Shown piece after piece: positions 1 through 14,726 of a stretch of 64,000 nucleotides of DNA (its first letter is position 1; the number at the start of each line of letters is the position of its first letter). The stretch comes from Sulfurimonas denitrificans DSM 1251. GTDB lineage: Bacteria; Campylobacterota; Campylobacteria; Campylobacterales; Sulfurimonadaceae. Where the stretch lies: contig NC_007575.1 of NCBI RefSeq assembly GCF_000012965.1, positions 1,488,001 through 1,552,000 of the forward strand, read 5' to 3'. The position numbers and the translations under genes are program-made. The notes beneath the pieces were generated by a model. That model saw nothing but the letters and a program-made list of their open reading frames with translations. It did not search any database and had not been told where the DNA came from.

Positions 1-417
1 TTTGAGTCCACTAAACTCTTCTAGTATCGGCACACAAATCTCTTCTGTAACACCTGGATAAACAGTAGATTCATAAATAACTATATCACCCTCTTTAAGC
101 ACTTCACCAACACTCTGAGTTGATCTTATGATGGGAGTTAAATCTGGCTGATTGGTCTGATCTATTGGGGTTGGGACAGTTACTATATAAATGTTAGAGT
201 CTTTGATATCTTCAATGTTTAAAGTAACTTTCATACCATTATCAAGAGATGATTTAATTTGAGTTTGTGAGAGCTCTAATGTTCTATCAAACCCACTATT
301 TAGCTCATCTACTCTTGATTTATTTATATCAAACCCAACCACTTCATACTTTTTACTAAATGCATGAGCCAATGGAAGCCCAACATAGCCAAGTCCTATA
401 ATACATATCTTGCTCAT
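1..417 (-). CDS. Nucleotide-sugar dehydrogenase (UDP-glucose/GDP-mannose dehydrogenase family), N-terminal part
   Basis: The gene runs off the left edge; 139 N-terminal residues are present. They open with MSKICIIGLGYVGLPLA, the GxGYVGLP dinucleotide-binding motif of this family, and go on to a VPTPID segment and a YESTVYPG segment, both typical of the NAD-binding domain. Members oxidise UDP- or GDP-sugars twice to uronic acids for surface polysaccharides. The wording of the motifs is closest to the UDP-N-acetyl-hexosamine dehydrogenases (TviB/WbpA type), but the catalytic cysteine lies outside the window, so the substrate is not decided. It is separated from hypA by about 140 AT-rich bases and does not appear to be part of the hydrogenase operon. 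Confidence 0.85.
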   Translation of the reverse strand, partial: MSKICIIGLGYVGLPLAHAFSKKYEVVGFDINKSRVDELNSGFDRTLELSQTQIKSSLDNGMKVTLNIEDIKDSNIYIVTVPTPIDQTNQPDLTPIIRSTQSVGEVLKEGDIVIYESTVYPGVTEEICVPILEEFSGLK

Positions 418-555
418 ATACTCTGGAATGCTCCTTATTTATTGGACACAAGTTCACTCACTTAACACTCATCTATTTTAAGCTTTTGATTATATCTTTT
501 TTCAAATTATTTGGCGAAATATCTCCAAAATAACTCTCTTTTTTTTTAAAAATTT

Positions 556-897
556 CTACTCAAGCTCTAATTGCATCAGGTACATATCTTCTCCATCAAG
601 AACTCTTAAATCTGCACTTTTGCATTTTGGGCAGAGGTACTCGATGCCCTCTATCGTTGCCTCATTTAAACAGCTATTGCACTTTATGATAACTGGTTGA
701 ATGTTTATGATAAACTCAGCCTCTTCGCAGATAGTTTTCTCTTTGAAAGTCTCAAATGCAGTTCTTAGTAGTTCAGGTTCAACCCCGCTCATAACGCCTA
801 TTTTTATAACAACCTTGGTTACTTTTGTAGCACTGTTTTTTGAAGCGTTCTCTTCACATGAGTCTAAAAGTGATTGGACTATACTATATTCATGCAT
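556..897 (-). CDS. hypA: Hydrogenase maturation nickel metallochaperone HypA
   Basis: This 113-residue protein is the usual HypA length. It begins MHEYSI; the His2 region at the N-terminus binds nickel in the family. A zinc site is formed by two CxxC pairs in the C-terminal half (CNSC and CPKC). HypA works with HypB to insert nickel into the large subunit of [NiFe] hydrogenase. It is the last gene of the hyp operon, downstream of hypX with a short gap. I see no clear intrinsic terminator after it, only an A/T-rich stretch. Confidence 0.95.
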   Translation of the reverse strand: MHEYSIVQSLLDSCEENASKNSATKVTKVVIKIGVMSGVEPELLRTAFETFKEKTICEEAEFIINIQPVIIKCNSCLNEATIEGIEYLCPKCKSADLRVLDGEDMYLMQLELE

Positions 898-940
898 TAT
901 TATTATTCCTTGATTTTATTTTGTCACGCACTAGTGCCTC

Positions 941-2581
941 TTATTTTAGTCTTTTAGGTGTTTCAATGGAACACACTTTATAGACAAAATCATATCTTAG
1001 TTTATGAAAAGAGCTATCTTTATCCCAAAACTCTGGATACATGATTTTCAACTCTTGCTCTTTTTTCTGCTCTATCATATAACCATTTTTAGACAAAAAA
1101 TCCTCTTTATCATATAAAAAATCACTATATTTATCGCCGTCTTCGCATAATTTTTGAGCAAACTCATCTAAAGAATCAAAGTAGTTATTCTCTTCAAAAA
1201 CTTCATCAATCATACCGATTTTCTTAGCTTTGTTTGCACTTAGAGGTAGGCACTTTGTTAAAAGCTCATCAGCTTTTACTTTACCAACTCTTTTTTCTAG
1301 CGTATAGGTGTGGTATTCGCTACCGCTAAGCCCCAAAGTTTTATAGTGCGGATTTAAAACGACTCCTTCTCGTGCAACGGCGTAATCACATGCAAGAGCC
1401 AAAAAAACTCCACCTGCCCCTGCATTTTTGCCTAAAGACGCAACCGTGACAACATCATCTGCAAAAAGTATTGATTTTACGACATCATTCATAGCGTTGA
1501 TGTTACTCCAACCATCTTCCCCCTGCTTTTTGGAGTCTTGGAGTATGTTTAGATGAATCCCGTTGCTAAAAAAATCCGCTCCGCCCATCAGAACTACAAC
1601 CTTGCAGCTCTCCCTTAGATACTCAAACGCATATTTTAGCCTTATGCACTGCTCAGAGTGCATGGCGCCATTGTGAAAATTAAAGTACAAATACCCAACT
1701 TCACCCATCACTTTAGAGCTTATCTCATGAAAAGTGATCTCTCCGACTTCACTAATCAAAGGTATTCGCACCTCTTTAACACCCTTTATCTTCTCTTTTA
1801 AAATATAGGTCGAGGGGAGTTTAAACTTTCCTACTTCTAACATGTGGCTTATCCAAAGAGCGCCATCAATAGTTCCAACACAAACCGCACCATCTCTTTT
1901 TGCGATTATCTCCTTTGGCTCTCCTTTTAAACTACTCTCTTGCCACGCACCAAAAAGATAGCACTCAACTCCCAAAAATTCATCCTTAACACCAGGGTAA
2001 CTATCGCTTACATGTATCTTTTTTATAATCTCTTTTGTAGTCTCTTTTTGCCAATCAATAGCTCTCTCTTGTTGAGTAAGATACGGATGTATAGGCGATT
2101 TTAACTGAGGAGTAGGTTTATAATCTTTATCATGTAGATTTTTTAGAAAAATTTTAAGAGCTTTTGAAGCGGCAGATGCTACTTCATTTCTATATATGGA
2201 AGCCTTGTAACTCTCTCGCATAAGAAATCTGACTTCTGCGTAAATATCTCCGCCATCAAGCTCTTCGTTTGCTCTAAGGATTACGACTCCCCACTCTTTT
2301 TTATCCTCTTTGAGGGCATGGTCTAGCGAATTATGCCCTCTGTCGCCTCTGATACCGGGATGAAGTATGTAAGTCGGAGTGTTTAAAAAAATCTCACATG
2401 GGAGATACTTTTTCAAGTAAGGACAAAAGATAATATCTGGCGCAAACTCTTCAACACTCTGCATCATCGCCTCATTGCTTATCGCATACTGCACAGAAAC
2501 CTCGTGATTCATATCTTGAAGCTCACAAAACACTCTTTGGGTAAGAGAGTTAAATGCCGATACGATTAGAAGTATTTTCAT
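941..2581 (-). CDS. hypX: HypX/HoxX, CO-ligand synthesis protein for [NiFe] hydrogenase
   Basis: This 546-residue protein has two domains. The N-terminal part (about 1-270) resembles formyl-tetrahydrofolate hydrolase/transferase domains, including an HPG motif and a GGDIYAE segment. The C-terminal part (about 285-490) is a crotonase-like fold with the oxyanion-type segments LMGGADFFSNGIHL and KNAGAGGVFLALACD. HypX takes a formyl group from formyl-tetrahydrofolate and releases CO for the active-site iron, a route known from aerobically growing hydrogen oxidisers such as Aquifex and Cupriavidus. Its place between hypE and hypA, 4 bases after hypE, supports this. Many related anaerobes lack the gene, so it points to hydrogen use with some oxygen present. 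Confidence 0.92.
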   Translation of the reverse strand: MKILLIVSAFNSLTQRVFCELQDMNHEVSVQYAISNEAMMQSVEEFAPDIIFCPYLKKYLPCEIFLNTPTYILHPGIRGDRGHNSLDHALKEDKKEWGVVILRANEELDGGDIYAEVRFLMRESYKASIYRNEVASAASKALKIFLKNLHDKDYKPTPQLKSPIHPYLTQQERAIDWQKETTKEIIKKIHVSDSYPGVKDEFLGVECYLFGAWQESSLKGEPKEIIAKRDGAVCVGTIDGALWISHMLEVGKFKLPSTYILKEKIKGVKEVRIPLISEVGEITFHEISSKVMGEVGYLYFNFHNGAMHSEQCIRLKYAFEYLRESCKVVVLMGGADFFSNGIHLNILQDSKKQGEDGWSNINAMNDVVKSILFADDVVTVASLGKNAGAGGVFLALACDYAVAREGVVLNPHYKTLGLSGSEYHTYTLEKRVGKVKADELLTKCLPLSANKAKKIGMIDEVFEENNYFDSLDEFAQKLCEDGDKYSDFLYDKEDFLSKNGYMIEQKKEQELKIMYPEFWDKDSSFHKLRYDFVYKVCSIETPKRLK

Positions 2582-2585
2582 CTCT

Positions 2586-3584
2586 TTAGCAGATTCTAGG
2601 AAGCAGTTCGCCGCTTGGAGTGTCTAAAAATCTTGAAGTTCCCCAACTGCTGTTTAAAACCACTTTTTTGGGATGCGTATCCGTCACTTTGGCGATAATT
2701 GTGGCTCTTGAACAGCTCTCAAATGTTTTTAAAATCTCCACCGCTCTTGGTGCATCTTCATGGTTTACCGCCAATACAAAAGTACCCTCATTGGCTAAAG
2801 ATGCTGCTTCAAAACCCAGCATCTCGCAGATACCTTTTACCTCATCGCTAACTGGAATACTCTCCTCTTCAACCTCGATGCAGACATTTGACTGTCTTGA
2901 CCACTCGTTTAAAACCGCACTTACTCCGCCTCTTGTCGCATCTCTCATGGCTGTTATCTTTATGCCTGCATCCAACAGAGCCTTCACCTGAGGATAAAGC
3001 GACTCGCAATCGCTTTTGAGTGAACTGCTCATCTCAATACCCTCACGAGCAACAAAAATAGCCGCCCCGTGACAGCCGACATCACGGTTTATGATGATGA
3101 CATCATCCTTAGTTATGTTGTTGGAGCTGATGCCTTTTTTTATAACTTCGCCTATTCCGCTAGTGTTTATGAAAATCTTATCGACACTTCCACGAGGCAC
3201 AACTTTAGTATCGCCACTCACAACAATAGCCCCGTTAATCTCAAGCTCTTTTTTCATACTTCGCACAATACGCTCAAGCTCTCTAGTCTCAAAACCCTCT
3301 TCGATGATAACACTACATGTCAAATACTTCGGCTTCGCACCCATCATTGCAAGATCGTTACATGTACCGCAGACTGCCAGCTTGCCGATGTCTGCACCCG
3401 CAAAAAAAAGAGGCGAAACCGTAAAACTGTCAGTAGAAAATGCCAACTCTCCGTTATGGATGATGGCCGCATCTTCGCTTTTGTCAAGTATCTCATTTTT
3501 AAAGGCTTTATAAAAAACCTTAGAGATAAGTTCATTGTTCTCTTCTCCGCCGTTGCCGCATGCCAGGCTTATTGTTTTAGTCAT
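2586..3584 (-). CDS. hypE: Hydrogenase maturation protein HypE
   Basis: This 332-residue member of the PurM/ThiL-like ATPases dehydrates the thiocarboxamide formed by HypF into a thiocyanate, the source of the cyanide ligands of the Ni-Fe centre. The protein ends in PRIC, the conserved C-terminal cysteine that carries the carbamoyl/cyano group. The N-terminal part contains the nucleotide-binding segments DDAAII-like and GDTKVVPRG. The ATG directly follows the stop of the upstream KAP NTPase gene (TAGATG), and an AGGA ribosome-binding site lies inside that gene's end, so the two are likely translationally coupled. In most hyp operons hypE follows hypD directly; here two genes sit between them. 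Confidence 0.96.
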   Translation of the reverse strand: MTKTISLACGNGGEENNELISKVFYKAFKNEILDKSEDAAIIHNGELAFSTDSFTVSPLFFAGADIGKLAVCGTCNDLAMMGAKPKYLTCSVIIEEGFETRELERIVRSMKKELEINGAIVVSGDTKVVPRGSVDKIFINTSGIGEVIKKGISSNNITKDDVIIINRDVGCHGAAIFVAREGIEMSSSLKSDCESLYPQVKALLDAGIKITAMRDATRGGVSAVLNEWSRQSNVCIEVEEESIPVSDEVKGICEMLGFEAASLANEGTFVLAVNHEDAPRAVEILKTFESCSRATIIAKVTDTHPKKVVLNSSWGTSRFLDTPSGELLPRIC

Positions 3585-4934
3585 CTATAATATTCCTGTT
3601 TCGATAAAATTATTTATTTCATTTAAAATATCAACTTCAGCCTGATTATTACTTTCTCTGTGTATATCTATGTTAAAATAATTCATAAAATGTAAACTTT
3701 TAATTAATGATTCATTACTATTTATAAAATCTAATAGTATTGTCCCATAATCAGCTTCTTTGGATTTTGTCCCATTATTCTTTTCATATAACAAAGCTTC
3801 TGTCTTAAGATTTTCTATAACCTTTTGATTATATATCATCTTGCTATCTGAGATATAAGCCATAATCTCAGTAGATAAATATTCAACATCACTCTTAATT
3901 CTTGAATTTGTTGCATCTTTATAATTAGATTCATGTCTCTCTATTTCACCAAACTTATATTGAAATGTTTTGCTAATATCCTCTTTATCTAATGTAGCTA
4001 CAAATATATGATGATTGAGTATAAAATTTATATTTACTAAAATAAAATATTCTAAATAAAAGGGTGTACAAACTCTATGTTTACTATACCATTCTAAAAC
4101 ATTATCTAAAACTTGTATTAAAATTCTTGCATTAACAATTCCAACTTTACAAAAAGTATTTTTCAAAACTATTTCAATTTTTTCTTCATCTCGTGTTTCA
4201 GAATCATTTTTTAAAGATTTATATTTCTCCTCTTTAAAAATCATGTCAAACAGCTCTTCACATGTAGGATTAAACATAAGATATTTTGAAACAGTTTTTT
4301 CTTTTACGGTTGTAAAAATTTCCTTCTCTTTTCCTTCAAATACATCACTGTTTAATATGATTACTACTTTGCATTTAAAATTAAGAGTTAATTGAGTAAT
4401 AAAGCCGAATAAGTCATTTAAATCTATCTCTTTTGATTTTCTTTCAAAATCATCGAAACAAACGACTCCGCCATCATTTAAAAATTCTCCAGCTTTTGTA
4501 AACTTATCATCATCTATTAAATTTTCTACTTCCTTAAACACTTTTCCTGAATCAAATTTTACCGCTCCTGCTGTAACTGCAGTAACAACCGTAGAAAATA
4601 TTGAACCCATTTTTTTTCCGTAAGATAAGGATGTAGAGCACATCTTACTCACAATATCAGCATCGCCAATCACACTGTTATAAGCATTCATAAACAAGTC
4701 CATCTCTATTGATTCTATATTTGTTTTACCATAAAGACTCACATAAGAATAAGCTTTCTTCTTATTTTTTTGTTCTTTTTTTAAGCTTGTTTCTATTTCA
4801 TTTTGCCAAAAATGGGTTTTACCACTACCCCATTTTCCAGAAATCATTATCACGTTACCATTATTGTTTTTGTTTAGTAAATAGGCATCATCTTTGTCAA
4901 CTAAATAGTTTTTTAATTTTTCTGTATTCTTCAA
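3585..4934 (-). CDS. KAP-family P-loop NTPase inserted in the hyp operon
   Basis: The 449-residue protein has a Walker A motif GKWGSGKT at residues 33-40, a Walker B motif VVCFDDFER at about 157-165, and a sensor-like strand VIILNSD near 191-197. A mildly hydrophobic segment (about 108-125) lies between Walker A and B. An insertion there that can contact membranes is a hallmark of KAP NTPases, the family that includes the F-plasmid phage-exclusion protein PifA. The start is TTG, supported by a good AAGGA six bases upstream, and it overlaps the stop of the small upstream gene (TTGA). The gene is more AT-rich and Asn/Lys-rich than the hyp genes, which suggests acquisition. No hydrogenase role is known. 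A defence or membrane-stress role is inference only. Confidence 0.8.
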   Translation of the reverse strand: MKNTEKLKNYLVDKDDAYLLNKNNNGNVIMISGKWGSGKTHFWQNEIETSLKKEQKNKKKAYSYVSLYGKTNIESIEMDLFMNAYNSVIGDADIVSKMCSTSLSYGKKMGSIFSTVVTAVTAGAVKFDSGKVFKEVENLIDDDKFTKAGEFLNDGGVVCFDDFERKSKEIDLNDLFGFITQLTLNFKCKVVIILNSDVFEGKEKEIFTTVKEKTVSKYLMFNPTCEELFDMIFKEEKYKSLKNDSETRDEEKIEIVLKNTFCKVGIVNARILIQVLDNVLEWYSKHRVCTPFYLEYFILVNINFILNHHIFVATLDKEDISKTFQYKFGEIERHESNYKDATNSRIKSDVEYLSTEIMAYISDSKMIYNQKVIENLKTEALLYEKNNGTKSKEADYGTILLDFINSNESLIKSLHFMNYFNIDIHRESNNQAEVDILNEINNFIETGIL

Positions 4935-5158
4935 TTATTATCCTTCAAATCTATTTTTCCCGTCTCTATAAACAGCTTACAAAAGTTTTCCCAATCATGC
5001 AAGTAAATTCCATTATCGCCATCTAACAGCAAACAAGTTGTACCTCTCGCACTCTCTTTCCAAAAAGTGTAAAATGGTAAATTTTTAATATCACTTTCTA
5101 ACACATATCTTTCATTATTAATATGTACACTCAATCCGAAGTAGGTTTTTTCTTTCAT
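4931..5158 (-). CDS. Small hypothetical protein paired with the KAP NTPase
   Basis: About 75 residues beginning MKEKTYFGLSVHINNERY. An ATG 18 bases further upstream (5176) would give 81 residues but overlaps hypD. I prefer the ATG at 5158 because it falls two bases after the hypD stop and has a GGGA twelve bases upstream, though the ribosome-binding site is weak either way. I recognise no family. The protein looks like a small soluble alpha/beta domain without membrane segments or cysteine motifs. Its stop overlaps the TTG start of the KAP NTPase gene, so the two are probably co-translated and may act together. Confidence 0.65.
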   Translation of the reverse strand: MKEKTYFGLSVHINNERYVLESDIKNLPFYTFWKESARGTTCLLLDGDNGIYLHDWENFCKLFIETGKIDLKDNN

Positions 5159-5159
5159 T

Positions 5160-6302
5160 TTATACCAAATTCCCATACTTATAATAAGCCGCGCAAGCCC
5201 CCTCGCTGCTTACCATACAGCTTCCTATCGGTGAAGTCGGTTTACATGCAGTTCCAAAAATAGTACACTCTGGAGGGCTTGCCATGCCTCTTAAAATGTC
5301 TCCGCAGATGCAGAGTTTATGGTCTTCTATCTCGCCGATTGGCAAGACATCTTTGTAGATAACCTCTGCATCATACTCTTTAAATTCAAGCTTTAGTTTT
5401 AGTCCGCTTTTTGGTATGTTTCCCAAACCTCGCCACTTAAAGAGGTCTGCTTTGTCAAAATATCTACTCATAAGCTCTTGTGCTTTTAGATTTCCATCGT
5501 AAGTTACTAGCCTTTTGTACTCTATCTCAAGCTCACATCTGCCCTCTATAAACTGTTTTACCACCATGCTAATCGCCTGCATGACATCAACCGGCTCAAA
5601 TCCTGCGACAACTACTGGACGATTGTAGTCTCTTGGGAACTCTTCATAGATTTTGCTTCCGCTTATAACGCTTACATGTGAGGGTCCTAAAAATGCATCA
5701 ATTTTGTTGTTGTAACTATCTACATGTATATCTCTGGAGTCTATAAGCTCACGCATTACTTCGGGAACAGTTACGTGGTTTATGTGAAAGTAGATATTTT
5801 TAATGCCCATTTTTATAACCGCGTCAAGAAGTGCTGCCGTCATTGGAGTGGTCGTCTCAAAACCTATAGCAAAAAAGATGATTTTTTTAGTCGGATTCTC
5901 TTTTGCGATTTTTAGGCACTCTAAAGGAGAGTAAACAAAACGAACATCAGCACCTCTGCTTCTTGCATCTTGAAGGCTTCCGTTGCTTCCTGGGACTTTT
6001 ATCATATCGCCTAGAGTCACAAGTATAACTTCCGGCTGCATACTTAAAACATAAGCGTGATCAATTCTCTCTTTTGGCATGATGCAAACAGGACAACCGG
6101 GACCATGGATAAACTTGATGTTTGATGGTAGTAGTTGAGGAAGTCCGTACTTCATAATGGTATGCGTATGTCCACCGCAGACTTCCATGATATTTATGGG
6201 GTTTTTAAGCTTTGCTGCATCTTCGTTTATGATTTTTGCATAAGCTTTTATGGTGTCAGCGTCTCTAAAATCATCATATAAATTTTTAAGTTCTAGCTCC
6301 AT
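5160..6302 (-). CDS. hypD: Hydrogenase maturation protein HypD
   Basis: This is a 380-residue iron-sulfur protein that, with HypC, forms the scaffold on which Fe(CN)2CO is assembled. Visible family motifs include MEVCGGHTH, the HGPGCPVC segment with its redox cysteines, GFETTTPMTA, and a C-terminal cluster region with several cysteines (CICGDILRG, PECTIFG). I chose the ATG at 6302 rather than the in-frame ATG at 6329. It has a strong GAGG eight bases upstream, it lies just after the hypC stop, and the upstream ATG would overlap hypC. The downstream neighbour is the small unknown gene rather than hypE. Confidence 0.96.
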   Translation of the reverse strand: MELELKNLYDDFRDADTIKAYAKIINEDAAKLKNPINIMEVCGGHTHTIMKYGLPQLLPSNIKFIHGPGCPVCIMPKERIDHAYVLSMQPEVILVTLGDMIKVPGSNGSLQDARSRGADVRFVYSPLECLKIAKENPTKKIIFFAIGFETTTPMTAALLDAVIKMGIKNIYFHINHVTVPEVMRELIDSRDIHVDSYNNKIDAFLGPSHVSVISGSKIYEEFPRDYNRPVVVAGFEPVDVMQAISMVVKQFIEGRCELEIEYKRLVTYDGNLKAQELMSRYFDKADLFKWRGLGNIPKSGLKLKLEFKEYDAEVIYKDVLPIGEIEDHKLCICGDILRGMASPPECTIFGTACKPTSPIGSCMVSSEGACAAYYKYGNLV

Positions 6303-6303
6303 G

Positions 6304-6594
6304 TTAGTTTCCTCTGCTTGGACACTCATCTGCTTCTAAAATTGCCAACTGCCTATCTTCTTCATTCATAGCATCTATAATTTCTCTATAAAGTGCCAAA
6401 CTATCAAGCGCCTCTGCTTCATCAATCTTATTCATCACAAAACCGATATGCAGAAGTACATAATCGCCTATACTAATCTCCTCTTCACTCATAAGCGACA
6501 AAGAGGCTTCTCTTTGCACGCCCATAGTATCGACTGTTGCCACTTCATTTTCTCTATCGATTTTTACTACTTTTGATGGTATTGAAAGGCACAT
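6304..6594 (-). CDS. hypC: Hydrogenase assembly chaperone HypC
   Basis: The 96-residue protein begins MCLSIPSKVV. The conserved Cys2 binds HypD and the large-subunit precursor and helps shuttle the Fe(CN)2CO unit. Length and the small beta-barrel pattern (for example ATVDTMGVQREASL and GDYVLLHIGFVMNKID) match HypC/HupF/HybG. The start overlaps the hypB stop by one base (TAATG), and hypD follows at once. Confidence 0.96.
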   Translation of the reverse strand: MCLSIPSKVVKIDRENEVATVDTMGVQREASLSLMSEEEISIGDYVLLHIGFVMNKIDEAEALDSLALYREIIDAMNEEDRQLAILEADECPSRGN

Positions 6595-7394
6595 TATCTC
6601 ATCTCCATTTTAAACTTAATCCAAGAAGCAACTCTCTTGATACTCTCTTCATCTTTGGTGCTCACTTCAAGTATGTCAACACTCGGCTTTAGCTTTCTTG
6701 CCATCTCTTTCTCTTTTTGCATGTCATACTCAAAATATGGGAGCAGGTCTGTTTTGGTAAAAAGAATCAAATCAGCTTGGCGAAACATAACAGGATATTT
6801 TGCGATCTTGTCTTCGCCCTCTGGAATACTTACTAGAACTATGTTTAAGTGACTTCCTACATCATAACTAGCAGGACAAACTAAGTTTCCTACATTCTCC
6901 ACAAAACAGACATCCACACTATCTAAGTCCATGTGATGAAGAGCTTTATGAACCATAAACGCATCCAAATGACAAGCTGAGCCTGTTTGAATCTGATGTG
7001 CTTCTATCCCTTTAGCCTTTAGTCTATCGGCATCACGGCTAGTCTCAAGGTCTCCCTCAATTACACTAAATTTAAAATCAGCAACATCAACTAAAGCCTC
7101 TAGGAGTGCAGTTTTTCCGCTTCCAGGAGAGCTCATAAGGTTTATAGACAAAACATTATGCGAGTTGAAATGCGCTCTATTGTGCCCAGCTTCGTGATCA
7201 TTTTTATCTAATATTTTTGAAATTATTGAAATCGTTTTTGGATCATTTAACTGCGGATTGTCATGCAGATGTTTATGAGACCCATGGTGTTCGTCTCCAT
7301 GATGATGTTCGTGATGAGAATCTTCATGGTGGTGATGTTCGTGAGAGTGACTCTCTCTTTGTTCTACTATAGAACAACCGCAATCTTTACACAT
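6594..7394 (-). CDS. hypB: Hydrogenase nickel incorporation GTPase HypB
   Basis: This 266-residue GTPase delivers nickel together with HypA. The N-terminal CxxCGC-type motif (MCKDCGCS) is the high-affinity nickel site. It is followed by a histidine-rich stretch (about residues 16-47), which in relatives stores nickel or zinc. The G1 motif SSPGSGKT is at about 88-95, and FTKTDLLP matches the later guanine-recognition NKxD-type position. The ATG has an AAGGA eight bases upstream. It is the first gene after a 281-base leader with its own likely promoter. Confidence 0.96.
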   Translation of the reverse strand: MCKDCGCSIVEQRESHSHEHHHHEDSHHEHHHGDEHHGSHKHLHDNPQLNDPKTISIISKILDKNDHEAGHNRAHFNSHNVLSINLMSSPGSGKTALLEALVDVADFKFSVIEGDLETSRDADRLKAKGIEAHQIQTGSACHLDAFMVHKALHHMDLDSVDVCFVENVGNLVCPASYDVGSHLNIVLVSIPEGEDKIAKYPVMFRQADLILFTKTDLLPYFEYDMQKEKEMARKLKPSVDILEVSTKDEESIKRVASWIKFKMEMR

Positions 7395-7409
7395 ATTTTA
7401 TATCCTTAA

Positions 7410-7600
7410 TTTTTTTTACACCCTCAAGGGGTACCTAGTAAAATGGAGGAATCTCTTCATCTGTTTATTGTGGTATCAGAAGTATGCCCCCAATGGCGAC
7501 TAAATTCTGATACCTACGCTCATATCTCAAGGGCACTTTACTCAGGCGCATTTAGTTTGTTTTAAAAAAAACCATCAGCACCCGTGCCTCTTTTATCCTA
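7410..7600 (-). ncRNA. Structured leader RNA candidate upstream of hypB
   Basis: The 281-base gap between hypF and hypB is richer in GC than other spacers here and contains helices that read best as minus-strand RNA. The arms at 7472-7481 and 7505-7514 form a perfect 10-bp hairpin (GGTATCAGAA with TTCTGATACC). Bases 7515-7519 can pair with 7546-7550 only if a G-U pair is allowed on the minus-strand RNA. Bases 7531-7535 can pair with 7584-7588. A TATAAT at 7642-7647 would start a transcript of roughly 240 nt before hypB. I do not recognise a known riboswitch class. Function is unknown; a metal- or cofactor-sensing leader is a guess. Confidence 0.4.
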
Positions 7601-7641
7601 AAAAAAATATTTCTCTATCATTATTCTGAATAGGCATTCAT

Positions 7642-7647
7642 ATTATA
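7642..7647 (-). promoter_or_regulatory. Candidate -10 element for the hypB operon
   Basis: Read on the minus strand this is a perfect TATAAT, preceded by an A-rich run, about 250 bases before the hypB start codon. Campylobacterota promoters usually show a strong -10 and a weak -35, as seen here. It would make hypB and the genes after it partly independent of hypF. Confidence 0.45.
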
Positions 7648-7675
7648 TGTTTTTAATATAAATCTAATATAAATT

Positions 7676-9904
7676 TTATATTTTTTTATTATATGATAAA
7701 ACATAATAAGCTTGCCCCAAAGCAATGCCACCATCATTAATAGCGCTCTGGCGTTGGTAATAGTGTTTGATTTTCTCCTCTTTTAACTCTTTACATGTAA
7801 GCTCAAGAAGTGTTTTGTTTTGAAACACTCCTCCGCTTAAAATCACTTCTAGTTTTTCGATTTTTGAAATGTCTAAGATGATTTTTATAAGCGTGTTTAT
7901 AAATGTAGAGATTAACTCTTTTTTATCTGGCTTATTCTTTAACATGTACTCTACTATTTTCATATCAATCACGCCGTTTTCTACTATATAATCAAAACAT
8001 TTTTTTATGCTTTTATCATAATAGCTCTCACACAAAAGTCCGCTCTCGCCCTCATAACTTATTGTCTGAGCGATATTTGAAAATGAAGCGATAGCATCAA
8101 AGAGCCTTCCCACCGATGAGCTTTTTGGTGCGTTTAGATTTTTCAGATAGCTTTGATGCAGCATTTTTATCTCTACATGTGAAAAAGATTTTACAACATC
8201 TAGTTCAAGTTTTAAAACCTCTTCTAAAGAGAGTTCATCAAAAAGCATACTAAGTGCTACTCGTCTAGGCTCTTTTATGGCTCTCTCACCACCTAAGAGT
8301 TTAATCTGTTTGAAACTGTATTTGCGTTCATCTCCTACAAAAATCTCTCCGCCCCAAAGTGTGCTATCATCGCCGTAGCCAGTTCCATCAAAACTAAACC
8401 CGACATAATCTCCGCTAAGACCAAATTCCGCCTTACAAGCGTAAATATGAGCCAAATGATGCCCGATTTCTACCAACTTTTTGTTCTGTTTTTTAGCCCA
8501 TTTTGTCGTTTCATAGTTTGGGTGTCTATCATGAACTATAATATCTGGTTCAAAGTCGTAAAACCTTTTAAAACTCTCTAGTGTTCTCTCAAAAAACCCA
8601 AAAGCTTCCAAAGAGTTTAAATCTCCGATATGAGGAGAGAGTATAATATTGTCATCCATTACAAAAGCTACAGAGTTTTTTTGATTTGCTCCGACTGCTA
8701 AAATCATATTTTGACTCTTAAATGGGAGTTTTATTACCTTTGGAGCGTATCCTCTTGATAGCCTTAAAACCTGCATATTTTCATCTACAACTTGAACTAA
8801 ACTATCATCAACTCCATTAATTATCTCTCGCTCAAAATCTAGCGTAAATTCAACAAAGGGGAGCTTTTTAAAGATATCTTCTGCTTTTATGATGATAGGC
8901 TCATCACCAAGGTTTGCACTAGTGGCAACTATTGGATTTTGCAGATGAGCAAAGAGAAGATGATGAAGAGCAGTGTAAGGTAAAAAACAGCCGATTCTAT
9001 CGATGTTTGGAGCTAAAAGAGATGAGATATGATTACATGTACGCTTTTTTAGTATAACTATGGGAGCTTCTTTACATGTCAAAAGTTGTTCCTCTTTCTC
9101 GCTTACCTCTGCGAGAGCCTTTATCTGCTGTAAATCTTTGCACATGATGGCAAAAGGCTTTGTCGGTCTATGTTTAAACTCTCTTAAGTTTTTTAGAGCC
9201 TCATCACTATTTGCATCACAGACTATATGAAAGCCGCCTATACCTTTGATGGCTAGAATTTTTCCGTTCTTTATAAGAGATGCGACCTTTTCAATAATGT
9301 TTTTTTTATCTATTTCTACTTTTTGATTCCCCTTAAAAAGAGACAAAGAGGGTCCACACTCATTACATGAAATCGGCTGCGCATGGTATCTTCTGTCATG
9401 TGGGTTTTCGTACGCTTCTTTGCACTCACTACACATCTCAAACACATCCATAGAACTATTTTTTCTATCATATGGGACACTCTTTATAATGGAGTATCTA
9501 GGTCCGCAGTTTGTACAGTTTGTTGCAAAGTAGTTGTGGTATCTACCCTCTTTTTTCACATCATCCAAGCACTCTTTACATGTGGCTATATCACTGGAGA
9601 TTAAAGCTGTTTTTTGATTTATTGAATTTTGTGAGCTTTGCACTATTTTAAAACTTTTTTCTTGCAGAGGTTTTATATCTTTAGTAACAATGGTATCAAT
9701 TCTAGCTAGCGGTGGGAGTTTTAGACTAAGAGAGGCATTAAACACATTTAGCTGTTGTTCCCTCCCCTCTACTTCTATCTCTACACCACTCTGGCTGTTT
9801 TTTACAAAGCCTACTAGGTCTAACTCTAATGCCATTTTATAGACAAAAGGGCGAAATCCAACACCTTGAACCTGCCCTTTTATACTATAAGCAACTCTTT
9901 TCAA
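7676..9904 (-). CDS. hypF: Carbamoyltransferase HypF
   Basis: This 742-residue enzyme activates carbamoyl phosphate and transfers the carbamoyl group to the HypE C-terminal cysteine, the first step of cyanide ligand synthesis. Domains in order: acylphosphatase-like (1-90, GQVQGVGFRPFVY), two zinc fingers with CxxC pairs at 109/112, 130/133, 158/161 and 180/183, a YrdC-like domain (about 200-380), and a Kae1-like domain with HHLAH, SFDGTGYGDD and LSGGVFQN motifs. The start is TTG and overlaps the hydE stop (TTGA), so it is likely translationally coupled to hydE. Confidence 0.96.
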   Translation of the reverse strand: MKRVAYSIKGQVQGVGFRPFVYKMALELDLVGFVKNSQSGVEIEVEGREQQLNVFNASLSLKLPPLARIDTIVTKDIKPLQEKSFKIVQSSQNSINQKTALISSDIATCKECLDDVKKEGRYHNYFATNCTNCGPRYSIIKSVPYDRKNSSMDVFEMCSECKEAYENPHDRRYHAQPISCNECGPSLSLFKGNQKVEIDKKNIIEKVASLIKNGKILAIKGIGGFHIVCDANSDEALKNLREFKHRPTKPFAIMCKDLQQIKALAEVSEKEEQLLTCKEAPIVILKKRTCNHISSLLAPNIDRIGCFLPYTALHHLLFAHLQNPIVATSANLGDEPIIIKAEDIFKKLPFVEFTLDFEREIINGVDDSLVQVVDENMQVLRLSRGYAPKVIKLPFKSQNMILAVGANQKNSVAFVMDDNIILSPHIGDLNSLEAFGFFERTLESFKRFYDFEPDIIVHDRHPNYETTKWAKKQNKKLVEIGHHLAHIYACKAEFGLSGDYVGFSFDGTGYGDDSTLWGGEIFVGDERKYSFKQIKLLGGERAIKEPRRVALSMLFDELSLEEVLKLELDVVKSFSHVEIKMLHQSYLKNLNAPKSSSVGRLFDAIASFSNIAQTISYEGESGLLCESYYDKSIKKCFDYIVENGVIDMKIVEYMLKNKPDKKELISTFINTLIKIILDISKIEKLEVILSGGVFQNKTLLELTCKELKEEKIKHYYQRQSAINDGGIALGQAYYVLSYNKKI

Positions 9905-11571
9905 AAAAGCTCATTTCCACCATACAAGATATTTCTGCCATCAATAGGCAACTCTTTGTTAAAGAATAAATTATGATTTACTGAGACCTCTTTTGAGAGT
10001 TTGCTAAAGATAGGTCTATTTTGAAGAAGCGAGCCTGTAGCAACCACTGCATCACTCTTCATCTCCTCTTTTATCTCATCAAGGGTAGATGAGAGAAACT
10101 CTACAAAACTCTCTATAACTCCATAACTAAGGGTTAGTTTATCAACTTTTGCAAGTTTAAAACTCATAGCAGTTCTGATGCACATAAGAGGATCTAAGTA
10201 AACTTTTGAGCCAACTCTTTTTAGTTTATAGTCTATTCTGGGACCTTTTGTACCTAAAAACAGAGTTGCATTCTCCTCTATAGCTTTTGCAGCTATTGAT
10301 AGGTTTGCCTCTTTTGAGTAACCCAAAACTATGGACACTATGCCCCATAATTTATAAACATTGAGCTCTTTTTCGTCAAAAACTATTTCCGATATCTCTG
10401 CAAAATGTTCAGGATCGCTGTTTTTAAAGTTTTTCACTAACTTCTCACCGCTCTCATTAGTAGCCATTATTGCTTTGAGTAGCTCTTTCATGGAGTCAAA
10501 TTTAAACTCAAATGAGAGATACTCAATTGTTCCAAATTTTTTAGAGTAGATTAAAATATTGTTGTGGTACTCTTTGCTTATATTTATACCAGCTACAGTT
10601 TTATCCTCTAAACCATGCTCTTTTATAACTGAGAAAAAAGCACCCAGATGAGGAATCAAACCTTTTTTCTCTTCCAAATTTTCATAAGGGAGACCTTTTT
10701 GACCGCTAAGTATTGCCAAATGATTATCGCCAACTACAATCTCTATTGGCTCTTGCTCTATTGCGCCTTTTACTAACTCAAATACTCTCTCATGTAAAAT
10801 CTTCTCTTTTGTTATAAAAATAAGGTTAATTCCCACTTTATGAAGTTCGCAAAGCAGAAGATGTAAAATAAAATCATCGGGCAATTTAAAACGAATAAGT
10901 TCACTCTCTATATCTTCAAAATCCATCTTAAATTTGATATTTGTTTTTAGCCTTACAAAAGGTTTCTCAATTGCTCCAATAGCGGCTATTTCACTATTTG
11001 TAGCGTTTGTGTAGTGCGCTATTGTTGATAAATCATAACTGATAATATCAAACTCTTTATCACTACACACTTTGCCTATTTTTCCAACAAAAACTCTTCC
11101 ATAAAATGTATCTATACCAACTACCAAACCTTCATTAACTGCTTTGGCAATCTCTGTTATCTGCTCTTTATAGCTCTTTTTTTCTCCATCTAAACCATAT
11201 CCACAAACTTCACATTCATGAAAAATATTGTAGTAGTTCTCGTCTGTCTCATCCATAACTTCAGCCAAACACTTGGGGCAAAATGGCATTGAGAGTTTTG
11301 AAGTTTCATCAAGAGTAGAGCTCTCTGTGGGCATCTCATCAACCACTACAGCGTCAGTTGCATGTAAAAATATAGAGTGCGGAAGTTCTAATGAGAGCCT
11401 CTGAGCAAACGCTCCTAACTCATCACTATCTTCTGATTTTACATACAAGAGCAACTCGTCTCTATTTTTTACTAGAGTAGAGTCTAGTAAAAATAGTTTT
11501 AGAGTTCTTAGGATTATCTTCTCATAAATTAAAGAGGATGAGAGATACCTAAATGAAAATTTCAATATCAT
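9901..11571 (-). CDS. hydE: HydE, HypF-like hydrogenase accessory protein lacking HypF catalytic motifs
   Basis: The 556-residue protein sits after hydD, as hydE does in Wolinella and Helicobacter, where its role is poorly known. Read beside HypF it shows the same order of parts. There is an N-terminal region, a zinc finger with CxxC at 98/101 and 120/123, and a YrdC-like stretch (NEGLVVGIDTFYGRVFVG, later EKPFVRLK). A Kae1-like C-terminus has ATGSLLQNRPIF where HypF has LSGGVFQNKTLL. The HypF HHLAH metal motif corresponds to PHLGA and the FDGTGYG motif is not kept. It is therefore probably a non-catalytic HypF paralogue. Its start overlaps the hydD stop (ATGA). Confidence 0.8.
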   Translation of the reverse strand: MILKFSFRYLSSSLIYEKIILRTLKLFLLDSTLVKNRDELLLYVKSEDSDELGAFAQRLSLELPHSIFLHATDAVVVDEMPTESSTLDETSKLSMPFCPKCLAEVMDETDENYYNIFHECEVCGYGLDGEKKSYKEQITEIAKAVNEGLVVGIDTFYGRVFVGKIGKVCSDKEFDIISYDLSTIAHYTNATNSEIAAIGAIEKPFVRLKTNIKFKMDFEDIESELIRFKLPDDFILHLLLCELHKVGINLIFITKEKILHERVFELVKGAIEQEPIEIVVGDNHLAILSGQKGLPYENLEEKKGLIPHLGAFFSVIKEHGLEDKTVAGINISKEYHNNILIYSKKFGTIEYLSFEFKFDSMKELLKAIMATNESGEKLVKNFKNSDPEHFAEISEIVFDEKELNVYKLWGIVSIVLGYSKEANLSIAAKAIEENATLFLGTKGPRIDYKLKRVGSKVYLDPLMCIRTAMSFKLAKVDKLTLSYGVIESFVEFLSSTLDEIKEEMKSDAVVATGSLLQNRPIFSKLSKEVSVNHNLFFNKELPIDGRNILYGGNELF

Positions 11572-12113
11572 AAAACGCCCTTTATGTATGTATATTTTGA
11601 AGCTTCTTCTAAAGTTATATCGCTTTTTATCGAAGCGCTCACTCCAAAATCTTCTATGTATTTTATAATTACTCTCTCCATTAGCACCGCAGCTTTTAAA
11701 ACTTCATCAGTCATGCTAAAGGTGCTGTTTTCCCCTATCACAAAAGGGATAACTCCTACTATTTTAGTTGGAGGCAAATCTCCTAACATCTCTATCATCT
11801 GCAGAGTTTGGAGCATTTCAACTTCATGAGCACTTCCATTCCAAGTTATAAAATCTGGAACATCGTTAAAATCAAAACTATAAACATCCCCAATCTTTGC
11901 ATCGGCAACATTAACGCAATCAATAAGCAAAACAGCATCATACTGAGTGATAATTGGTATCAATCTTTGAGCCAATGTCCCACCATCAAGAATATCAACT
12001 GTATGCTCATCTGAGCTAAATTCATACTTCTCATCAAGGAAATTTGCTAAATGAGCACCTATCCCCTCATCGCCAAAGAGGATATTGCCTATACCTAATA
12101 TTAAAATCTTCAA
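11568..12113 (-). CDS. hydD: Hydrogenase maturation endopeptidase HydD
   Basis: The 181-residue protein belongs to the HyaD/HybD/HupD peptidases (family M52), which cut the C-terminal tail from the nickel-loaded large subunit. Motifs: LGIGNILFGDEGIG with the metal-binding Glu, LLIDCVN with the conserved Asp, and SAHEVEMLQ with the conserved His. Its natural substrate is HydB, whose precursor has a 23-residue tail after the DPCxxCxxH motif. The first gene after the inverted-repeat element that separates it from hydC. Confidence 0.93.
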   Translation of the reverse strand: MKILILGIGNILFGDEGIGAHLANFLDEKYEFSSDEHTVDILDGGTLAQRLIPIITQYDAVLLIDCVNVADAKIGDVYSFDFNDVPDFITWNGSAHEVEMLQTLQMIEMLGDLPPTKIVGVIPFVIGENSTFSMTDEVLKAAVLMERVIIKYIEDFGVSASIKSDITLEEASKYTYIKGVL

Positions 12114-12163
12114 TAAGAGTCCTTATTATGACTAACTGATTCTAAGCACTTTTCATAAAAATG

Positions 12164-12267
12164 CATAAAGCACAGTGTCGTTCTCGAAAAACAAAGTTTT
12201 TCGTAGCTTTATGGGGTTGTAGGGACATTTGTCCCTGGCATTAAAATGGACTAGTCCGTTTTAATGC
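12164..12267. repeat. Intergenic element of nested inverted repeats between hydC and hydD
   Basis: About 100 bases hold four inverted repeats in a row. CATAAAGC (12164-12171) pairs with GCTTTATG (12206-12213). Inside it, CGAAAAAC (12185-12192) pairs with GTTTTTCG (12196-12203). GGGAC (12222-12226) pairs with GTCCC (12231-12235). A 30-base near-perfect palindrome follows at 12238-12267, with one T-G mismatch. The arrangement resembles REP- or MITE-like intergenic elements and could also act as an RNA processing or partial termination site between the structural and accessory genes. I did not find another full copy in this window. Confidence 0.6.
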
Positions 12268-12280
12268 ATAACATCAGTGT

Positions 12281-12982
12281 CTAGTGTTTTCTTTTCCATC
12301 TATATCCACTAAATATAGAGTCAACCGTTCCCTCTTTTCCATAAACAGCGTTAAAAACAACCATATAGATGTGTCCAACTATGAAAAGAATAACTCCCCA
12401 CATAAGTACATGGTGCAGCTCTCTAATAGCAGCCATACCGCCAAACATAGCTTCAACATATCTCATGCTACCATAAAGCGCTCCACCTATACCATCATGA
12501 TAGTTATGAACGTACAAGATAAGACCAGTTAATATCAGACCGCTTGTAGCTATATAAAATATCAAATATGCCATCAACTGAACAACATTATATGCGCCAG
12601 TTAGTTTAGGATGCTTTGTTAAAAAGAGATAGTAACCTACCTGACTCATCCAATTTTTAAGATTAAATAAATCTCTAAAAGAGGTAATCTCCATTTTATC
12701 TTTTGCAGAAAAAAAGAAATAGTACGTCTTTCCTATAAACATGGAAATCATAATAAATCCAAACACCTGATGCACCGCTCTATACTCTGCATTTATAAAA
12801 TTTGTAGGCTCGGCATTTACTGCTGGAATTATATATGGAACTGAGAGATAAAACCCAGTTATAATCAAAACAGTTATACTAAGAACTCTTATCCAGTGGT
12901 GCCATCTATAAAATGTAGTAAACTCTAACTCCATCTGAATATGCTCATCTACATCTTTTTCTTTCTTTTTAATACTTTGCAT
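12281..12982 (-). CDS. hydC: [NiFe] hydrogenase cytochrome b subunit HydC
   Basis: The 233-residue membrane protein has several transmembrane helices with the histidine pattern of group-1 hydrogenase cytochrome b subunits (YRWHHWIRVLS, YRAVHQVFGF, ELHHVLMWGVILFIVGHIY). It anchors HydAB to the cytoplasmic membrane and passes electrons to menaquinone. I chose the ATG at 12982 because it has a strong AAGGGAG upstream; an in-frame start 30 bases earlier would overlap hydB. It is the third gene of hydABC. Confidence 0.94.
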   Translation of the reverse strand: MQSIKKKEKDVDEHIQMELEFTTFYRWHHWIRVLSITVLIITGFYLSVPYIIPAVNAEPTNFINAEYRAVHQVFGFIMISMFIGKTYYFFFSAKDKMEITSFRDLFNLKNWMSQVGYYLFLTKHPKLTGAYNVVQLMAYLIFYIATSGLILTGLILYVHNYHDGIGGALYGSMRYVEAMFGGMAAIRELHHVLMWGVILFIVGHIYMVVFNAVYGKEGTVDSIFSGYRWKRKH

Positions 12983-12992
12983 AATGGCTCCC

Positions 12993-14726
12993 TTAAATAG
13001 TGCATCCGCCATAAAGCGGGTCCACCTTATACTGGCTTAGTATTTTGCCTTTTGTATCCATTACATGTACTGCACATGCGATACACGGATCATAAGAATG
13101 AATAATTCTAATTATCTCTATTGGCTGTGTTAAATCCTCTATTTTTAGACCGATTAAGTCAGCTTCATAAGGTCCTTTTGCACCTTTAGAGTCCATTGGT
13201 CCTGCATTCCAAGTTGATGGAACTACTGCTTGATAGTTTTCAACAACACCATTTTTAATTCTAATCCAGTGACTAAGCATTCCACGAGGTACATCACCCA
13301 TACCTCTTCCTTTGTACTCTCTGTTTTTGTCTATAGTGTAAGTTGCACAAGTCTCTTGGTCAACTTTGAGATTTTCTATTAAGTTATTAAAAGCAACTAG
13401 AGCGTTATCTGCAATTAGTTTTGCCTGCAACATTCGCCCTGCTGTTCTTCCAAGTGTTGAAAAAAGAGCAGCTGCTGGAACACCTGTTTTAGCTAAGAAA
13501 TCATTTACTACTTTTACTGTTTTTTTGTTTCCTTTTGCATAACCGACTAACATACATGCTAAAGGACCAACTTCCATAGGCTCACCTTTATATCTTGGCG
13601 ATTTAATCCAGCTGTACTTCTCTTTTTCATTTATCATTTTAGAGCTAATCATTTTTCCATCAGGTCCAACAGTATCGCCATCTACAAAACCAGTATAGTT
13701 TGGATTTGTTGTTCCATCATAAGGGTGTTGCGGTGCATCATCTTTATACCATGAGTGAGTTGCTTCTTCAGTTATCATATCTTCATCAATCTCAAATACT
13801 TTACTAAGATCCCCGTTCATGATAACGCCACTCTCAAAAAGATAATCATTTCTGCCAACCATCATGTCTTGATGTGCCATAAAGTTTTTAACACCCATAG
13901 GTTTCATAACAGAAGGCTCAGTTTTGTACATCTCTGCCGCCATTACGATATCTGCATAGTAAGCATTATTTACAAAGTCTGCAATAGTCTGATATTTAAC
14001 TAAATACTCACCCATTCTAGCAGGGTTAAGAATATCCATAACACAAGTAACTCCACCTACTGCCAAACTCTGAGGATGTGGATTTTTACCACCAAAGATT
14101 GCCATCATCTGCGCTATTATTCTTTGAATTTCAAGAGCTTTTAAGTAGTGCGAAAGTGCAATAAGATTTTGTTCAGGTGTAAATCTAAATGTTTTATGCC
14201 CCCAATATGCGTTAGCAAAAGGTCCAAGTCCTTGAGGATTTTTAGCAAATTTTGCAATTTTTTCTTTTACTTTTTTAAGCTCATTCTCACCAGTTCCGAT
14301 TGGATTGTCACTATATTTAAAAGCTAATTTACTAGCCTTTTCTTCATCCGCAGAGAGTGCTGAGACTATATCAACCCAGTCAACACCATGTAGATGATAA
14401 AAATGCACAACATGGTCATGCATAAAAAGTGCCGCATTCATCAAAGTTCTTACAAGTTCTGCATTGTAAGGAATTTTAATTCCCAGTGCATCCTCTACTG
14501 CCATTGTGCTCTTTAGATAGTGGGAGTAGGTACAAACTCCACAAATTCTCTGCATCATAAGCGGTATATTTCTTGGATCCCTACCTTTGGCGATTACCTC
14601 TAAACCTCTCCATAGAGTTGAAGATACAAATGCGTCTTGAACAACTCCATCATCTCCAACTATTACCTCAGCTCTTAGATGCCCTTCTATCCTTGTTATT
14701 GGATCTACTATTACTCTTTTTGACAT
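12993..14726 (-). CDS. hydB: [NiFe] hydrogenase large subunit HydB (membrane-bound uptake type)
   Basis: The 577-residue catalytic subunit carries the Ni-Fe centre. The L1 motif RICGVCTYSH is at about 60-69 and the L2 motif DPCIACAVH ends at about 554. The 23 residues after that His are the tail removed by HydD during maturation. Sequence style and the neighbours hydA and hydC place it with group-1 periplasm-facing uptake hydrogenases. With HydA it oxidises H2 outside the membrane and feeds the quinone pool through HydC. Confidence 0.97.
   Translation of the reverse strand: MSKRVIVDPITRIEGHLRAEVIVGDDGVVQDAFVSSTLWRGLEVIAKGRDPRNIPLMMQRICGVCTYSHYLKSTMAVEDALGIKIPYNAELVRTLMNAALFMHDHVVHFYHLHGVDWVDIVSALSADEEKASKLAFKYSDNPIGTGENELKKVKEKIAKFAKNPQGLGPFANAYWGHKTFRFTPEQNLIALSHYLKALEIQRIIAQMMAIFGGKNPHPQSLAVGGVTCVMDILNPARMGEYLVKYQTIADFVNNAYYADIVMAAEMYKTEPSVMKPMGVKNFMAHQDMMVGRNDYLFESGVIMNGDLSKVFEIDEDMITEEATHSWYKDDAPQHPYDGTTNPNYTGFVDGDTVGPDGKMISSKMINEKEKYSWIKSPRYKGEPMEVGPLACMLVGYAKGNKKTVKVVNDFLAKTGVPAAALFSTLGRTAGRMLQAKLIADNALVAFNNLIENLKVDQETCATYTIDKNREYKGRGMGDVPRGMLSHWIRIKNGVVENYQAVVPSTWNAGPMDSKGAKGPYEADLIGLKIEDLTQPIEIIRIIHSYDPCIACAVHVMDTKGKILSQYKVDPLYGGCTI

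Follow-up and report, generated by a model that had tools for sequence, protein, structure and literature searches.

The hypD–hypE junction of Sulfurimonas as a likely in-operon hot spot for foreign genes, with a candidate single-gene anti-phage NTPase among its occupants

The question raised by the hydrogenase maturation (hyp) operon of Sulfurimonas denitrificans DSM 1251 is why two further genes stand between hypD and hypE. The operon was analysed in a window of 64,000 nucleotides (nt; contig NC_007575.1, positions 1,488,001 to 1,552,000), part of a 2,201,561-base single-contig genome, and all coordinates without a locus number are those of this window. Exact matches to the sequence were obtained for two primers that PMC4149538 gives for Suden_1435 and Suden_1437 of this strain. 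On the minus strand, the gene order is hypB, hypC, hypD, a gene for 75 amino acids (aa), a gene for a 449-aa P-loop NTPase, hypE, a hypX-like gene and hypA. The hypD–hypE junction is best read as a hot spot inside an operon for foreign genes, many of them defence genes, and this junction is the notable finding; for the window we lean towards the reading that the NTPase is a horizontally moving, single-gene candidate anti-phage NTPase expressed with the hyp genes.

The NTPase gene (3585..4934, minus strand) starts with TTG and was classed as a KAP-like or PDC-S49-like guest from Pfam, PADLOC and PHROG matches and a structure model. Upstream of it lies the 75-aa gene (4931..5158, minus strand; 81 aa if translation began at 5176, within the end of hypD). 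The small gene's stop codon and the TTG start of the NTPase gene overlap in the bases TTGA, and the stop TAG of the NTPase gene directly abuts the ATG of hypE; the first-pass annotation had reported both the two genes and these coupled frames, and sequence and open reading frame (ORF) coordinates confirm it. Its remark that the pair is rich in A+T, Asn and Lys was borne out for the NTPase gene, which with a G+C content (GC) of 0.26 is the most AT-rich of the 46 window ORFs of at least 150 aa (mean 0.356, standard deviation 0.037) and with 20.3% Asn plus Lys the highest of the same 46 (mean 12.9%). The upstream border is formed by hypD (5160..6329, minus strand), 93% identical to hypD of genome G244, whose hypD–hypE junction is empty; homology with the empty site extends to the last codon of hypD and restarts at the ATG of hypE (2586..3584, minus strand; AIRS and AIRS_C domains), the downstream border. 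On the minus strand, consensus scans gave no promoter-like site from 6232 to 4502 and, within 3585–6329, no terminator-like site; promoter-like sites were at chance level in the scanned stretch (18 found, 18.8 expected).

Spacing between hypD and hypE was compared across 60 Sulfurimonas genomes, of which 33 contained hypD, at 34 loci. All counts in this study rest on genome samples drawn by the search tool, many of the compared genomes being metagenome assemblies; gene calls are longest-ORF calls, and gene names without a stated domain or profile match were given by eye. The two genes had been described as normally adjacent, which holds for only 15 of the 29 resolved junctions (≤24 nt, often with an ATGA overlap); two junctions contain 97 and 181 nt, and 12 are filled with inserts of 443–4909 nt. 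Five loci were kept apart: guests follow hypD with no hypE within reach in G004, G016 and G236, opposite-strand genes follow hypD with no hypE met in G240, and G035 was left out. As controls in the same operons, the hypB–hypC and hypC–hypD junctions (hypB and hypC at 6304..7394, minus strand, in the window) were without inserts in all 28 and all 29 cases, respectively, and 1 of 25 gaps after hypE exceeded 30 nt. The difference between hypD–hypE and the other junctions gave a Fisher p of 1.2e-4, a value that ignores genome relatedness. In the junction sequences inspected, homology to hypD persists to the end of that gene and homology to hypE returns at its start codon, and in L014 and L171 the NTPase gene starts in an ATGA overlap at the hypD stop, like hypE in empty sites.

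Guests of at least 70 aa were surveyed in 18 loci, of which three are open-ended on the far side. They are co-directional with the operon in 67 of 68 cases, the exception (L115) being an apparent reverse of a decayed gene; gaps measure 30 nt or less in 55 of 82 cases, insert GC lies below hypD GC in 18/18 loci, and a search of 16 loci and of window positions 1–14000 revealed no tRNA or tmRNA gene. Defence genes of several kinds occupy the site, unscanned ones being named by likeness to scanned ones: a full-length PifA homologue (2155–4203; PADLOC PifA E 8e-82, positions 12–718 of 720) with a Fic-like gene in L111 (G021); a ParE-type toxin, PDC-M62AB (Septu-like ATPase and partner) and SoFic in L108; McrC, a McrB-like protein and an MNT-type nucleotidyltransferase in L110; McrC- and McrB-like proteins in L113; Fic-like, McrC-like and McrB-like proteins with a PDC-S02/DUF1016 (YhcG) nuclease in L114; a Fic-like protein, PDC-M62AB, a DUF1016-like protein and the PDC-S37/Hhe helicase-nuclease in L119; and a nucleotidyltransferase in L118. 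The same conserved flanks enclose differing defence genes across strains, the pattern by which a defence hot spot is recognised, with 12 of the 29 junctions filled.

A PADLOC scan of 28 guests (25 of the 68 counted and 3 from L122, the window's own two guests not among them) returned matches for 15 at 1e-3 and 12 at 1e-10, fractions that may run high, the guests having been hand-chosen, mostly by appearance. Among ten ordinary window genes, one matched (a ClpX-like AAA+ match at 8.7e-10) and none at 1e-10. The scan shows that defence genes are present at the junction and gives no rate. Three junction guests with no PADLOC match and, in the scans run, none to Pfam (L078:816-1493, L116:1761-3749 and L122:12641-13204; 226, 663 and 188 aa) are candidate defence genes by the company they keep.

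Traces of arrival were sought in 19 junction intervals. Two contain a 5′ stump of hypE directly after a guest gene, with intact hypE further on: L110:11685-11733 (49 nt) and L014:7233-7251 (19 nt, at the score threshold and at the expected place after the NTPase stop). Such stumps are expected where new DNA came with a guest and the start of hypE, and for these two cases the sequence suggests one-sided homologous arrival of this kind; neither hypD 3′ ends nor the internal hypE control were found in any of the 19 intervals.

What, then, is the NTPase? It passes Pfam KAP_NTPase (PF07693; 26.8 bits, cut-off 20) and matches PADLOC PDC-S49 (E 2.4e-26 over residues 5–342, and 5.8e-23) and phrog_4740 (E 9.7e-40, residues 18–369), its closest named sequence relatives. 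The best PDC-S49 match covers profile positions 7–313 of 624, short of full length, and the PDC-S49 and phrog_4740 models comprise 619–629 positions against 406–449 aa in the window NTPase lineage, whose members mostly finish close to F-[IV]-x-[ST]-G-[IV]-L; a literature search returned no paper mentioning PDC-S49. In an alignment of 23 proteins (the window NTPase and 22 relatives at 31–52% identity), Walker A, GKWGSGKT in the window protein, reads G-x-W-[GD]-x-G-K-T, Walker B, CFDDFER in the window protein, reads C-[FI]-D-[DY]-F-E-R (one Y and one I exception), and a C-terminal tail F-[IV]-x-x-G-[IV]-L is kept in most members. The first-pass annotation had read these Walker motifs correctly and had proposed a KAP NTPase like PifA with a hydrophobic insert between the motifs. 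Membership of the KAP family stood, as did Walker A and B as features common to PifA and Tmn; likeness to PifA is confined to 38 residues at the P-loop (E 3.5e-5), and the insert is not of transmembrane grade, its best 19-residue Kyte–Doolittle mean being 1.36 in the window protein and 0 of the 23 proteins reaching 1.6 between Walker A and B. A transmembrane-insert mode of action as in PifA or Tmn finds no support in the hydropathy of the insert.

The AlphaFold2 model of the NTPase (mean predicted local distance difference test score, pLDDT, 79.3) combines an AAA+-type core with a C-terminal part made of helices and shows the insert as a low-confidence helix. The model aligned with TnsC (Z 12.7, 246 residues, root-mean-square deviation (rmsd) 4.3), Cdc6/Orc1 (Z 12.6, 229 residues, rmsd 4.2) and, as best among defence proteins, the RdrA ring of RADAR (Z 11.5, 250 residues, rmsd 4.8). 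With RdrA, ORC/Cdc6, TnsC and MuB, the predicted structure would have the AAA+-type core in common at 11–15% identity, and these matches are taken as a common core, no sign of function.

Relatives of the NTPase were located by a search of genome contigs, which gave 26 loci, 24 with Campylobacterota-type names. A match was found in 9 of 60 relatives (own genome and fragments included) and, at E 1e-20, in 14 of 200 family genomes, nine of which hold a full-length copy (own included). For placement, 25 full-length copies were used, namely the 23 aligned ones, L171 and L172; left out were L026 (DNA identical to L003, from another Sulfurospirillum genome), the cut or split L028, L033 and L035, the remnant L039 and the distant L007 and L036–L038. 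Four of the 25 lie at the hypD–hypE junction (window, L014, L034, L171). Seven, by their neighbours, lie in a cobalamin operon before a cobQ-type gene; the downstream gene is visible in six of them, each time with the same 8-nt overlap, and in L017 it carries CobQ-type domains. Three copies stand between addB- and addA-like genes, two after a thioredoxin gene (L003 by Pfam), two after a type III-type DNA methylase gene (L015 by Pfam), one before a pglX-type gene (PADLOC PglX E 6.7e-250), one after ispG and one before rnhB; of four other contexts, one adjoins an integrase-like gene and one transposase-like genes. A co-directional neighbour lies within 30 nt in 21 of the 25 (exceptions L021, L022, L029 and L031), and L019, L025 and L030 have an opposite-strand gene on one side. 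Distant relatives occur on replicons of about 110 kb of E. coli and Klebsiella (131 plasmid records in all), one such replicon being filed as Escherichia phage CMS-2020a, and on the Campylobacter phages CJIE4-1, CJIE4-2 and PC10. The first-pass suggestion of a cargo that uses a host operon agrees with this patchy distribution (9/200), with the recurrence in unrelated operons and with the other defence genes at the junction.

Two damaged copies were also seen. In L039:6001-6189 the NTPase gene is cut to its first 62 codons before an addA-like gene, which suggests loss at an addB–addA junction; the copy at L035:6001-7187, in a cobalamin-type operon, falls into two frames that overlap and is probably frameshifted or a pseudogene.

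The 75-aa gene was taken by the first-pass annotation as one half of an undescribed two-gene system, with the advice to ask whether the pair recurs as a unit. In one homologue search with the small protein, matches at E ≤5.8e-7 were used and those at 0.006–0.1 dropped, many of the latter with internal stops. Homologues were found in 36 of 397 class-sample genomes and 5 of 200 family-sample genomes, own included, and all five of the latter are at the hyp locus: in the window, in L034 (G561, Sulfuricurvum LH_M14), in G124 after a Mks/JetC-like gene set and before an unknown gene and then hypE, in G434 before an unknown gene and then hypE with an opposite-strand gene in place of hypD, and, broken, in G012. 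Both genes together occur in 2 of the 200 family genomes, the window and LH_M14, both times at hyp. Each is also met there without the other: G582 (L171) has hypD–NTPase–hypE without the small gene, and G124, G434 and G012 (a remnant) have the small gene without the NTPase. Away from the window, 25 NTPase loci (3.9–13.3 kb each) were searched, and the small-protein match in L034 was the only one, the other 24 lacking the gene; in Sulfurospirillum diekertiae both genes are present (L026; L043/G173) and far apart. Recurrence of the pair away from the hyp locus, the mark of a two-gene defence or toxin–antitoxin pair, was not found. The trees differ as well. Hyp-borne small proteins form one clade (support 96/91), for which one arrival suffices, while for the hyp-borne NTPases the starred branches force at least two changes, and a single clade was rejected by the approximately unbiased test (p-AU 0.025; tested after a first tree was seen). 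The NTPase has thus come to the junction more than once, and the 75-aa gene is most likely a separate guest of the same junction and no obligate partner of the NTPase.

Three readings compete with this. That the two genes work as a pair, for instance with the small protein serving a defence NTPase as sensor, inhibitor or antitoxin, we regard as unlikely. It would explain the order hypD–small gene–NTPase–hypE in two genera with NTPases from different lineages, a co-occurrence above chance (2/200, hypergeometric p 0.017) and the fusion of the small domain in a defence-rich region of G143 (names by eye); the co-occurrence, however, follows from both genes sharing one hot spot, since in the family sample 5/5 small genes and 4/9 full-length NTPases are at hyp, and the separate finds at the same junction and the single further NTPase locus with a small-protein match also speak against a pair. 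That both proteins are hydrogenase maturation accessories, another thought of the first-pass annotation, is very improbable. Coupled frames inside the hyp operon and the hyp location in all five family genomes having the small gene are what an accessory would show, but 15 of 29 related hyp operons are empty at hypD–hypE, the same NTPase family sits in cob, addBA, trx and restriction operons, and outside the family the small gene adjoins purM or lies on mobile-looking stretches.

The third reading takes the guests for neutral or decaying cargo, arrivals at a tolerant junction that are kept only while their frames and coupling do no harm. It draws on the remnants in G012 (a broken small gene and a McrC-like fragment), the hypE stumps in L110 and L014, the NTPase fragment in L039, the split copy in L035 and the many metabolic genes among the guests. 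Set against it is the retention of the Walker motifs and most of the C-terminal tail in 22 relatives at 31–52% identity; the NTPase is therefore under selection as a protein, and we think this third reading improbable.

Several findings weigh against the horizontally moving anti-phage NTPase that we favour. IMG/VR gave one distant relative only, no known defence gene adjoins the NTPase in the majority of its operons, the protein yielded no effector domain, and the PADLOC PDC families that support its assignment are themselves candidates. In the tree, NTPase copies from operons of one type group together for the most part, so the gene is also inherited in place. Guests of the junction further include an aldo/keto reductase, CHAD, a histidine phosphatase, a pyruvate kinase, VF530 and unknown proteins, and the site is therefore not one for defence only; the hand choice of the scanned guests counts on the same side. 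The consensus scan placed two promoter-like sites within the NTPase gene, on its own strand. Finally, a hydrophobic helix at about residues 291–310 reaches 1.60 (residue 297), with up to 2.26 in relatives; outside the Walker insert 12 of the 23 proteins reach 1.6, nine of them around residues 267–297, the window NTPase included, and this stretch leaves room for contact of the NTPase with the membrane.

How the NTPase would work from this position can be proposed in outline. Given the TTGA overlap and the direct passage from TAG to the ATG of hypE, it would most likely be made from the hyp transcript through its overlapping and abutting frames. The kind of NTPase and a site in common with PifA, McrBC and Septu-like systems make a defence sensor the best reading, most likely a single-gene sensor of phages or plasmids. 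On sensing infection, nucleotide-driven oligomerisation of the NTPase may stop the infected cell; for this step fold and kin are the guide, and the passage from sensing to stopping a phage is modelled on relatives. At its 3′ end (3585..3602, minus strand) the NTPase gene carries AGGA within the codons of its E-T-G-I-L tail, AGGA lying in the E-T-G-I codons with the hypE start 9 nt downstream, and thereby likely hands a ribosome-binding site back to hypE. In L034 and L171 this position reads AGGG, and in 5 of 6 cob copies AGGA stands 10 nt before the cobQ start; the motif is absent at this place in all three add copies, and ordinary codon use could also account for AGGA before hypE. A wider generalisation is offered tentatively, as possible rather than probable: single-gene defence NTPases may nest in housekeeping operons between a stop and the next start, borrowing transcription and coupled translation and returning a ribosome-binding site through conserved 3′ codons, so that loss or silencing tends to harm the operon, the junction docking many guests by recombination anchored one-sidedly in hypE or hypD.

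Known systems differ in part. According to PMC11846954, Tmn, a defence protein of the KAP NTPase family, has two transmembrane domains, and the transmembrane feature ascribed there to KAP NTPases, with reference to work of 2004 and perhaps not universal, was not found between Walker A and B of the window NTPase. PifA resembles it at the P-loop only, although the protein of L111 at the same junction is a full-length PifA homologue. The hot spots cDHS1 and cDHS2 of Pseudomonas aeruginosa likewise have core-gene flanks, variable immune systems and lower GC, as given in PMC10250203; they adjoin tRNA or tmRNA genes, with a median of 26 kb for cDHS1. The hyp site in contrast lies inside an operon, has inserts of 0.4–4.9 kb with co-directional, mostly abutting guests, and showed no tRNA gene in the 16 loci scanned.

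Many defence genes were discovered by searching defence islands. Genes nested singly in metabolic operons slip past such searches, and a literature search found no paper on defence genes at hypD–hypE or inserted within housekeeping or core-gene operons. The junction offers a compact list of candidates beside known systems, namely the window NTPase and the unassigned guests of L078, L116 and L122; it also lends itself to testing whether coupling to useful operons is what retains defence genes.

The 75-aa protein had been described as being without a recognised family, which agrees with the absence of matches when the window copy was scanned against Pfam, PADLOC, NCBIfam and PHROG. Across 16 members, Pfam returned six families, each in a single member (best E 0.019), a profile search against the PDB nothing better than E 0.86 and Foldseek against the PDB nothing better than E 6. 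Its AlphaFold2 model (mean pLDDT 85.9) has no convincing match to a known fold; among 49 chains compared, Z was 5.9 for a Ski-like (SnoN) fragment (65 residues, rmsd 2.3) and 3.0 for a chain of GlnR, and the matches from a viral library were headed by an uncharacterised protein of a phage (E 0.29), helix-turn-helix and Bro-N proteins being among the weak ones. These weak rows of the predicted structure hint at a DNA-binding-like fold, which was set aside. Matches in E. coli, Salmonella and other plasmids (51% over 38 residues) were rejected as chance or remnant: none of the 58 plasmid records covers 80% of the query, and in one record inspected no gene is annotated at the match, which IS26 adjoins.

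Outside the family, the small gene is present in 28 of 48 genomes of genus g11 and directly follows purM in 22 of 23 loci read (L135–L157); it also lies near relaxase-like genes in L101 and L045 and after a HigBA-like pair in L043 (by eye). PurM and HypE both carry AIRS and AIRS_C domains, which may be coincidence or a lead; a tie of the small protein to this superfamily was considered and stays a lead only, as in hyp loci it adjoins hypD, the NTPase or other guests and not hypE. In G143, which holds three copies of the small domain, one copy (L042:1045-1716) forms the C-terminal end of a 223-aa protein whose N-terminal part contains Cys, and adjoins restriction and CBASS-like genes (by eye).

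Downstream of hypE in the window, the operon continues with the hypX-like gene (941..2581, minus strand) and hypA (556..897, minus strand), both named by eye and in the same order in relatives. In the related genus of G124, a Mks/JetC-like condensin set lies between hypD and hypE (L122/L124; JetC E 3.4e-5), preceded by a PIN-type toxin–antitoxin-like pair (by eye).

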